A stretch of DNA of 64,000 nucleotides from Nodosilinea sp. P-1105 (GTDB lineage Bacteria > Cyanobacteriota > Cyanobacteriia > Phormidesmidales > Phormidesmidaceae). Numbering within the stretch: position 1 is the first letter of the stretch; the number at the start of each line of letters is the position of its first letter. The notes under the pieces were generated by a model that was given only the letters and a program-made list of their open reading frames with translations, was not told the DNA's origin and did not search any database. The DNA is taken from assembly GCF_012911975.1 (NCBI RefSeq), contig NZ_SMDQ01000011.1, positions 1 through 64,000 on the forward strand, read 5' to 3'. Shown piece by piece: positions 23,353 through 25,944 of the stretch. A program made the position numbers and the translations under genes.

Positions 23353-23428
23353 GCTGAAGAGATGTGTGATTTCGGTATTGCCCCGTACCGTTTCCGTTTG
23401 CACTCATCACATTTCCGCCCTGGAGACC

Positions 23429-24601
23429 ATGCTCAACCCTAACCTAGACGACATCCAACTCACCAAAGAGGAGTACGAGCGCTACTCCCGCCACATTATT
23501 TTGCCGGAAGTGGGCCTAGACGGGCAGAAGAAGCTCAAAGCCGCCAGTGTGCTCTGTGTGGGCACGGGTGGGTTGGGCTCTCCGCTGCTGCTGTACCTGG
23601 CCGCCGCTGGCATTGGCCGCATCGGCATTGTTGACTTTGATCTGGTCGATCAATCCAACCTGCATCGCCAGGTGATCCACAGCGAGTCGTGGGTTGGCAA
23701 GCCCAAGATTGAGTCCGCCAAAGGCCGCATCCTGGAAATCAACCCCCACTGCCAGGTGGATCTCTACGAAACCCGGCTCAACGCCGATAACGCCCTCGAT
23801 ATCTTCAAAGACTACGATGTGGTGGTGGATGGCACCGACAACTTCCCGACTCGTTACCTGGTCAACGATGCCTGCGTGCTGCTGAATAAGCCCAACGTCT
23901 ACGGCTCGATCTTTCGGTTTGAAGGCCAGGCCACCGTCTTCAACTACCAGGATGGCCCCAACTACCGCGATCTATACCCCGAGCCCCCACCGCCGGGGCT
24001 GGTCCCCTCCTGTGCCGAGGGCGGCGTGCTAGGGGTACTGCCGGGGATCATTGGCGTGATCCAGGCAAACGAAACCATCAAGGTGATTTTGGGGGTGGGT
24101 AATACCCTTAGCGGTCGGCTGCTGCTCTACAACGCCCTGGATATGACTTTCCGGGAACTGAAGCTACGGCCTAACCCGGTGCGTCCCGTGATCGATAAGT
24201 TGATTGACTACGACATGTTCTGCGGCATTCCCCAGGCCCAGGAAGAAGCCCAAAAGGCCCTGGCTGAGATTCCTGAAATGACGGTCACCGAACTGAAGCA
24301 GGTGCTAGACCAGGGCGACAAGGATGTGCTGCTGCTGGATGTCCGTAACCCCAATGAATATGAGATTGCCAAAATTCCTGGGTCGGTGCTGGTACCCCTG
24401 CCCGATATTGAAAATGGCGATGGGGTGGATCAGGTGAAAAACCTGGTCAATGGCCACAAGCTGATTGTCCACTGCAAGATGGGCGGTCGTTCGGCCAAGG
24501 CTCTGGGTATCCTCAAGCAGCACGGCATTGCAGGCACCAATGTCAAAGGCGGCATCACCGCCTGGAGCAAAGAGGTAGATCCCTCAGTACCGGAATACTA
24601 A
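23429..24601 (+). CDS. moeB: MoeB/ThiF-type activating enzyme with C-terminal rhodanese domain
   Basis: 390 residues from ATG 23429 (MLNPNLDDIQLTKEEYERYS). The N-terminal E1-like domain has the ATP loop GTGGLGSPLL, and the candidate catalytic Cys is in VPSCAEGGVLGV. The C-terminal third is a rhodanese domain with the active Cys loop CKMGGRS. Such fused enzymes adenylate and then thiolate the C terminus of MoaD/ThiS-like carriers for molybdopterin, thiamine or cysteine synthesis. A linked JAMM peptidase is upstream; no carrier gene is adjacent. A strong terminator follows at 24638. Confidence 0.93.
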   Translation: MLNPNLDDIQLTKEEYERYSRHIILPEVGLDGQKKLKAASVLCVGTGGLGSPLLLYLAAAGIGRIGIVDFDLVDQSNLHRQVIHSESWVGKPKIESAKGRILEINPHCQVDLYETRLNADNALDIFKDYDVVVDGTDNFPTRYLVNDACVLLNKPNVYGSIFRFEGQATVFNYQDGPNYRDLYPEPPPPGLVPSCAEGGVLGVLPGIIGVIQANETIKVILGVGNTLSGRLLLYNALDMTFRELKLRPNPVRPVIDKLIDYDMFCGIPQAQEEAQKALAEIPEMTVTELKQVLDQGDKDVLLLDVRNPNEYEIAKIPGSVLVPLPDIENGDGVDQVKNLVNGHKLIVHCKMGGRSAKALGILKQHGIAGTNVKGGITAWSKEVDPSVPEY

Positions 24602-24730: not shown

Positions 24731-25201
24731 ATGACTGCTTGGCTCAACTTTTTATCTCTGATTCCAGCTACGGTCCTGACACTGCTGCTGATCAGCATTG
24801 CCTTTCTGCGTTTCTACAATGAACAAGATTTCACCTTCCTCGGACTCATCGCCAACCCCCGCATCTGGAGCAACCTGTGGTGAGCTTGTCGAATCCACCG
24901 GCTCACCATGGCGGCCTTCGTGGCTGCGGTTGCTAATTTCGGCGTTGAGTGGGACCGTCGAAACCGAGAGGCAAACCGCCTGGCTGAAGCAGCACAACGC
25001 CGAATTGAGGAAGAGCAACGCCGGGTTGAGGAAGAGCAACGCCGAGTTGAGGAACAAGAACAAGCAACTCGCCGAGCTGCAGTCGAAGTTGAACGAGATC
25101 TTGCACTCTTAAGCTATCTGGTTGCTCCCTCTGCCGAAAATCAGCGCAAGCTGGGCCTGGTATTAGCAGTTTTGGATGACTACCGCAACGCCCTCAGTTG
25201 A
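24731..25201 (+). pseudogene. Membrane/coiled-coil protein gene split by a 27-bp palindromic insertion
   Basis: The frame begins at ATG 24731 (MTAWLNFLSLIPATVLTLLL), crosses an N-terminal membrane helix, and reaches ANPRIWSNLW at TGA 24881. In the same frame it resumes at ATG 24908 with MAAFVAAVANFGVEWDRRNR, followed by a charged coiled coil (RRIEEEQRRVEEEQRR) and a C-terminal helix to 25201. The break is exactly 27 bp of a hairpin-forming sequence carrying the TGA. Removing it restores one continuous protein of about 147 residues. The second part lacks a ribosome-binding site. The gene is either broken or makes two peptides. Function unknown. Confidence 0.7.
24881..24907. repeat. 27-bp palindromic insertion carrying an in-frame stop
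   Basis: The insertion begins TGAGCTTGTCGAA and ends CCGGCTCACC. With flanking bases TGG on the left and ATGG on the right, it folds as GGTGAGC / GCTCACC around a 15-nt loop. The arm TTCGACAAGCTCA (reverse strand) is a motif I recall as dispersed in many bacterial genomes. A degenerate relative may lie at 35333 (ACTTGTCGAAGTA). Confidence 0.7.
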
Positions 25202-25362
25202 TCGGGATAGGAGAAGCACTATAGACCAGGTCCAGACAGACCAGGTCCAGACCTGGAGTTTTCCCAGGCAAATCTCCAGGTTTAGGACTTGGATTTGGTT
25301 TAGTCCGTTATTTCCCAGGCTTGTTATCATCAAGCACGGGTTCCTTGAGGGAGGATGGACGA

Positions 25363-25944
25363 ATGGTGGCGTGGTTTAGCCGAAGTGTCGGACTGGGGAT
25401 TGTGACCCTGGGGTTGCTGGCCCCCCCTGCGATCGCATTACCAGGGCAGTCGGTGCGAGTTGTCGAGACCTGGATACGTAATAACCCAACCCTGCGGCCT
25501 CGCCCCAACGAACGTTTGACCATTAATCGGGTGGCGGCACCGGGCCAGCGGTTTATCTTTCAGGCGTCTGTGTTTCCAGTCACGGGGGTACAACCCGATG
25601 TTAACCGCCGCACCATTCGCACCGAGCGATTTACCTTTGTCGATCACGCTAATCCGATTACCAGCGATCGCCTGGAAGAGTCCCTGCGGCTGATCTATGG
25701 TCCTGAGGTGTTCAACGACTATCGCCAGGCAGAAGAGTTGTTTCGCTATCCCCTGCGGGCTGGCACGGCGGCCACCGAGAATCCCAACCTGCGGCTGCGC
25801 GGCCATGTGCGGCAGGGGGAACAATTTGCCTACTGGCAAGAACTGGCCTACGACCAGGAAGGCAACGCCTATCTGGGTCGGATGGCGGTGCTGCTGAAAG
25901 CGGATCTGCCGCTGCTACAGGCCCACCTGATCGGTGACGAATGA
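25363..25944 (+). CDS. Exported hypothetical protein
   Basis: 193 residues from ATG 25363, supported by GAGG eight bases upstream. A signal peptide is clear: MVAWFSRSVGLGIVTLGLLA, then a cleavage site after AIALP. The mature domain is alpha/beta, with no cysteines. I do not recognise it. It contains RTIRTERFTFVDHANP and the tyrosine-rich segments RLIYGPEVFNDYRQ and FAYWQELAYDQEG. It is probably periplasmic or secreted. It is followed by a repeat-rich spacer. Confidence 0.65.
   Translation: MVAWFSRSVGLGIVTLGLLAPPAIALPGQSVRVVETWIRNNPTLRPRPNERLTINRVAAPGQRFIFQASVFPVTGVQPDVNRRTIRTERFTFVDHANPITSDRLEESLRLIYGPEVFNDYRQAEELFRYPLRAGTAATENPNLRLRGHVRQGEQFAYWQELAYDQEGNAYLGRMAVLLKADLPLLQAHLIGDE

Follow-up and report, generated by a model that had tools for sequence, protein, structure and literature searches.

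Sequence of the locus and the question it raises

A gene for a small membrane protein with a coiled coil, on the forward strand at positions 24731–25201, is divided into two reading frames, and it raises the question of what divides it and how the dividing sequence came to lie there. The window (the whole 64-kb stretch of DNA that was analysed) is the start of C13, one of the 195 contigs of a 6.0-Mb genome. By ORF translation, a first frame of 50 amino acids (24731–24883, forward strand) ends at an in-frame TGA (24881–24883), and a second frame of 97 amino acids (24908–25201, forward strand), which is in the same phase, starts with ATG at a codon that is GTG in 32 of 37 family members. A Pfam scan of the gene returned nothing above the family cut-offs.

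A 24-bp insert carrying TGA interrupts the gene in frame

The original prediction described a frame that continues on both sides of a palindromic insertion, and we found that both halves indeed match single-frame proteins of relatives. The C-terminal half was matched in 30 of 57 genomes and the N-terminal half in 27, and in many of the matches the two halves are joined in a single frame (191 amino acids in G025 and 170 in G020, for instance); homologue alignment, which had been proposed as a check, thus revealed that single-frame versions without the insert exist among relatives. The gene is part of a multi-copy family, copies of which lie near one another (9–11 matches on contig C1 of G014, and 5–7 on C1 of G054).

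The alignment also redefined the insert. A length of 27 bp and a position of 24881–24907 had been proposed; the in-frame, TGA-carrying palindrome is present, but it measures 24 bp, with four equivalent placements (a 3-nt slide, from 24873–24896 to 24876–24899) that span 24873–24899 of the forward strand. The junction in homologues reads TGG AGC AAC CGA CTC ACC GTG (WSN-RLT-V), and that in the window reads AAC CTG TGG TGA GCT TGT CGA ATC CAC CGG CTC ACC ATG. Because relatives keep RLT, with a native junction of WSN/RLTVAA, CGGCTCACC is gene sequence and the earlier boundaries are wrong. As a consequence, half of the GGTGAGC/GCTCACC hairpin once ascribed to the insert is host sequence; the insert's own stem here is GTGG/CCAC. 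Removal of 27 bp was also expected to join the flanks as LWMAAFV, a reading that occurs in none of the 37 junctions compared. Together, these results confirm an in-frame interruption of the gene by a palindrome that carries a TGA, at corrected boundaries. The stop is formed by the first three bases of TGAGCTTGTCGAA (24881–24893, forward strand), the core of a hairpin family.

The insertion site is empty in nearly all homologues compared

Among 37 distinct family junctions, the site is empty in 35 and filled only in the C13 gene and in a paralogue on contig C68, which carries the identical 24 bp at the identical codon. Two synteny markers on the forward strand, moeB upstream (23366–24601) and a gene without an NCBIfam match downstream (25321–25944), adjoin the homologue in G004, G016, G020, G022 and G025. 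The syntenic junction is empty in G004, G016, G020 and G025 and has been lost in G022; intact single frames are found in G004 (with another in-frame insert), G020 and G025, and the G016 homologue is broken through other changes. A 22-base probe, searched with up to three mismatches in 57 genomes, matched exactly in the C13 and C68 genes and found one site with two to three mismatches in each of three genomes, which is at chance level because the reversed control has two such sites.

The occupation of an identical codon in two paralogues is not predicted by random hopping. We weighed whether short gene conversion brought the insert from the C68 paralogue, or carried it the other way, such that one hop would serve both. 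The two genes share 44 identical bp around the insert and are only 0.64–0.79 identical just outside it, and both have the codon CGG, which occurs in 3 of 37 family members. However, only about 20 bp of the 44-bp run is gene sequence, from a conserved stretch, and its identity could be chance; two independent insertions at one favoured site are the alternative. We put the chance of conversion at about even and, between conversion and double insertion, lean towards conversion. The original prediction of a recent hop of a tiny palindromic element thus agrees with the empty sites and with the filled and empty pairs described below as far as the hop is concerned, while "recent" is only partly supported, because a diverged paralogue has the same insert at the same codon.

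The C68 gene (L061) is damaged further by a third small palindrome, TAAGTCTGGCGACAGGCTTCGCCA, which follows CGTCGAA, adds a net 23 bp and shifts the frame. A second tiny palindrome, GTAGGGCGAAGCCCGTGCGCAGC, is found within this gene family, in frame and always at the same site, in L061, L062 and L064 (contigs C68, C130 and C148) and in L007 (G004); it adds a net 21 bp without a stop, is read as VGRSPCAAW or VGRSPCEAW, differs by one letter in G004, and starts with GTAG, like REPs.

The insert belongs to a widely dispersed hairpin family

For TTCGACAAGCTCA, the motif that the original prediction had called widespread, the genome has 39 occurrences (reversed control, 0), the same count as for exact host copies of the 13-mer TGAGCTTGTCGAA. 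Also within the window are 61 copies of GCGATCGC, where about one would be expected; this is the HIP1 signature, common among cyanobacteria (accessible text of PMC4390886).

Similar hairpins were found in metagenome-assembled genomes (MAGs) of several phyla, on viral contigs and on proteobacterial plasmids. The 21-mer GGTGAGCTTGTCGAAYCCACC has exact matches in 16 further stretches, from genomes of several phyla, and in 7 of the 16 it is preceded by CCTGT, as here, two of these seven being mutually homologous. The recurrence of the insert's sequence is not chance; since all 16 foreign records are MAGs, some of the apparent spread among phyla could be an artefact of mis-binning. A 33-nt form is present at 162 places in 34 plasmid records, from Moraxella, Sphingobium, Comamonas, Sphingomonas, Polaromonas and Methylotuvimicrobium, and plasmids carrying it are a possible vehicle between phyla. 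Close copies of this form occur on plasmids of Moraxella osloensis and Sphingobium, and in the 25 records shown no listed gene lies beneath the match, the gene table being incomplete.

The core of the family, TGAGC-(2–3 nt)-GTCGAA, is nearly fixed. With the loop left free, a filtered pattern found 25 host places with two-base loops (TT 21, CT 2, GT 1, AG 1; control, 2) and 39 with three-base loops, 37 of them purine-N-A (control, 0). Twelve foreign genomes, all MAGs and chosen by holding one 21-mer, were surveyed for the core via 12 of the 16 21-mer loci (L104, L106, L108 and L114 omitted). The core occupies 400 places in G067, an Anaerolineales MAG (control, 9), and 93 in G062, a Phycisphaerae MAG (control, 3). 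Among the places listed (100 of the 400 in G067, 50 of the 93 in G062), two-base loops end in T in 36 of 39 (G067) and 28 of 30 (G062), and three-base loops are purine-N-A in 31 of 61 and 14 of 20; the three-base-loop rule is looser in G067 and G062 than in the host. In 14 genomes of the genus, filtered patterns gave counts of 21, 14, 6, 1 and 1 and nine zeros; among eight genomes of other families, two had a count of 1 and six had none, the control giving one match, and these single matches outside the genus are at control level. These patterns, which end in H and D, under-count, seeing 21 of 39 copies in the host's own genome.

Several arrangements of the copies were seen. Three-base-loop copies are often paired back to back in inverted orientation, 29 nt apart and REPIN-like (G000:C13:83799–83857, with similar pairs on other contigs). 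The 13-mer also forms short tandem arrays with periods of 32 bp (L065: 1036, 1068, 1100) and 40 bp (L066: 1026, 1066, 1106), and at loci of the own genome some CCTGTGCTG...TGTCGAAGTAGG units are interrupted by other palindromic pieces, so that small repeats are nested.

The stems covary. With G-T pairs and one bulge allowed, the stem reaches 3 pairs or more in 86 of the 101 distinct copies, and the mean best stem across the 101 is 3.74, as against 1.71 with shuffled partners (top of 2000 shuffles, 2.25). The result is similar when each distinct inner flank is entered once (63 rows; 2.11 against 1.27; top of 5000 shuffles, 1.63) and on viral contigs (89 rows; 2.56 against 0.92; top of 1000 shuffles, 1.36), where at least 120 rows were listed and 80 loci used, and where there is some conservation 5' of the hairpin, such as C at -10 and G at -4. 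The gene's own copy folds weakly, no better than shuffled sequence (-1.7 kcal/mol, z 0.05), and folding is strong for a 33-nt copy, CCGTTCGCCC...GGGTGAACGG (-9.8, z -4.5). We draw the core as a T-A pair, tandem G.A/A.G, a G-C pair, one unpaired T and a C-G pair that closes the loop of 2–3 nt; this tip is not reproduced by the energy model. Among hairpin loops, the CTTG loop and the C(GNA)G triloop are known for unusual stability.

Filled and empty sites argue for mobility

Filled and empty pairs were sought in host stretches that cover part of the genome. At site A, CCCCTCCTGGGAGGGGCAGGGGTGGG is empty in one copy and filled in five by exactly CCTGTGCTGAGCTTGTCGAAGTA, 23 bp; the placement is unambiguous, ends 3 nt past the core and shows no duplication. 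At site D, GTAGCGGCCCCGGAGGGGCAACTTGTCGAAG is empty in three copies and filled in one (L074) by 24 bp; here and in the C13 gene the same 3-nt end is possible, each with three other placements. A further site, B (GGGAGAGG...), was dropped as proof of insertion, the observed empty copies being two letters different.

We also asked what may have moved the hairpins. The host has seven Y1_Tnp matches, six of them above the cut-off, and the core was found near none of the seven loci (flanks up to 1.5 kb). Elsewhere, seven of the eight other genomes searched have Y1 loci, 26 in all, and 5 of these have the core, which is not above density (3 against 1.7 expected in G067, P 0.24; 2 against 0.58 in G062, P 0.12). 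From these counts, linkage of the hairpins to Y1 transposases was rejected.

A different explanation is that the core hairpins are immobile, being RNA or DNA sites (such as a protein-binding hairpin) that formed in place and have been kept by selection. Selection would account for the near-invariance of the core: 8 single-mismatch variants (stem of at least 4), all at position 6, were found against 196 exact cores, although this survey drew on loci preselected for the exact 13-mer. The exact 23- and 24-bp filled and empty pairs argue against such sites, as do the copies that lie in genes in several phases, the patchy counts among genomes, and nine loci in which Rfam found no match at the gathering threshold. 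We consider formation in place improbable.

The family resembles, and departs from, known repeats

REP elements are palindromes of 20–50 nt, in high copy, with imperfect stems, unpaired bases and a strand-specific hairpin (accessible text of PMC8266576 and PMC6006769), and they can insert within genes with the frame kept; in-frame palindromes are known (accessible text of PMC3733652 and PMC6006769). The host resembles REP/RAYT-TnpAREP systems in its many dispersed palindromic copies, 39 exact and 39 at three-base-loop places. Unlike REPs, the family has no conserved GTAG/GTGG 5' foot: the upstream bases vary (GTCC, TGCCC, GTGC, GTGG), and the GTGG at the gene's own copy is part of the stem. 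Whereas a search rule in the accessible text of PMC6006769 calls for a basal stem of 7–20 pairs, only 58 of 101 copies have at least 4 pairs and 14 of 101 at least 6; the 33-nt form, with 10–11 pairs, brings some copies within that range. The invariant tip, the short stems and the lack of a linked Y1 gene flanked by the repeat are further differences.

CGTC-tagged REPs, as described in the accessible text of PMC3733652, are small palindromes found in several phyla and within genes, without association with a transposase gene. The present family is like them in each of these respects, but the insert has neither the CGTC tag nor their 8–9 bp stem. TGAGC, GTCGAA and TTCGAC are absent from the accessible text of PMC3733652 and PMC6006769, the consensus sequences of the former being given in figures.

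MITEs differ in that there is no target-site duplication at site A, the sole unambiguous pair; this result rests on one site because the 3-nt slide at site D and in the C13 gene could be a 3-bp duplication. Rickettsia palindromic elements are in-frame inserts in genes, with most of their frames open. The present family shares with them insertion inside genes, here and elsewhere, with both flanks in frame, and differs in sequence and size, in having met a closed frame here and in its spread across phyla (the Rickettsia elements are mentioned in the accessible text of PMC3733652). Very small mobile repeats in cyanobacterial genomes are reportedly the subject of a 2008 paper by Elhai; the likeness to those small dispersed repeats goes by its title. 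Literature searches with the 13-mer, related 11–13-mers, six peptides and broader words returned nothing describing the core, judged by title and with most subscription papers outside their scope. The family works like REP and Rickettsia-type elements, yet fails most of the REP tests made.

Effect of the insert on the gene

If the insert is a mobile hairpin, then its arrival may have inactivated the gene or left it working as two parts. Pairwise dN/dS of the split halves (N-terminal, 0.06–0.12; C-terminal, 0.12–0.30) is low, as it is among intact homologues (0.04–0.14 and 0.14–0.58), whose values it matches or slightly undercuts, so that relaxed selection after the split is not detectable by pairwise dN/dS, a whole-branch average that is blind to recent loss. 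The split is recent or tolerated.

The original prediction had also raised a split into two peptides. Under this explanation, the first frame would make a one-helix peptide and the rest would be re-initiated at the ATG at 24908. The low dN/dS of both halves fits a working split gene, and so does the codon directly after RLT, where this gene alone of the 37 has ATG in place of the usual GTG; this ATG would favour re-initiation, as a weak indication from one change. Against it, a recent loss would be invisible to the whole-branch average, a ribosome-binding motif was not seen by eye just 5' of 24908, and the C68 copy is broken further. We find a working split gene unlikely. A programmed stop, or recoding of the TGA to give a regulated full-length protein, is compatible with the frame being open on both sides; the stop, however, is limited to two paralogues of one genome, lies in a repeat found in many contexts and phases, and belongs to the element core, resulting from phase. 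We regard recoding, which the original prediction had offered as an option, as scarcely credible.

Copies within other genes

Elsewhere, the element is read in frame as part of proteins. A domain scan of eight proteins placed it within the matched domain in three: an inositol monophosphatase (L113; domain 3–260, element 78–85), an SDR protein (L105; domain 8–206, element 54–61; L106 is a near twin) and a Gfo/Idh/MocA protein (L114; C-terminal domain 134–263, element 194–201). It lies outside the matched domains in L107, L111, L102 and L115, and L108 has no matched domain. In the best PDB homologues, the gap near the element is 13 residues in three pieces (L113), 7 (SDR) and 12 (Gfo), and in the second-ranked templates it is the same 13 (L113) and only 3 (SDR), with none of that size for Gfo. 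These gaps fit 8 codons poorly; it is the open frames and the domains that make the in-frame reading clear.

The six frames of the 24-mer read TCGELVES, PVVSLSN, LW(stop)ACRI, GFDKLTTG, DSTSSPQ and IRQAHHR, one with a stop and five open. As the unit is 24 bp long with one closed frame of six, many copies in genes could pass as in-frame additions; the phase of the interrupted gene is that of the single closed frame. In mechanical reading frames of L143 and L145, PFDYAQDK, LSLSKG and VPSIVEG resemble translated relatives of the hairpin, and peptides like these may appear in predicted protein sets.

A putative mobile hairpin and its meaning

On the sequence evidence, we consider it likely that a putative mobile, REP-like hairpin hopped into the gene. 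A 24-bp copy (about 8 nt, TGAGCTTGTCGAA and 3 nt) would have entered between codon 48 (Asn) and the next Arg codon, leaving the frame unchanged, and would there have met its closed frame, such that the protein ends after 50 residues. From its likeness to substrates of TnpAREP (accessible text of PMC8266576 and PMC6006769), we infer that folded single-stranded DNA is the form in which the unit moves. The tip, with the T-A, tandem G.A/A.G, G-C, unpaired T, C-G and small loop drawn above, would be recognised in trans by an enzyme encoded away from the copies. The gene would have been cut in two, most likely becoming a pseudogene in a multi-copy family and possibly giving two peptides.

More broadly, and tentatively, at somewhat less than an even chance, we propose that the insert represents a class of minimal mobile hairpins that is pan-bacterial and as yet undescribed. 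Its members would be 23–24 nt long, with the conserved tip TGAGC-(loop)-GTCGAA and arbitrary self-complementary stems; a widespread enzyme encoded away from the copies would move them in trans as single-stranded DNA, and they would be carried between phyla on plasmids and add in-frame peptides to proteins. If mobile, they would rank with the smallest mobile DNA units that we know of, crossing phyla and editing proteins in frame, and the fixed tip with free stems would offer a direct handle on the moving enzyme. Such hairpins may explain the recurring peptides GELVE, GFDKLT, STSSP and VVSLSNP in predicted proteins, as well as some seemingly split genes.
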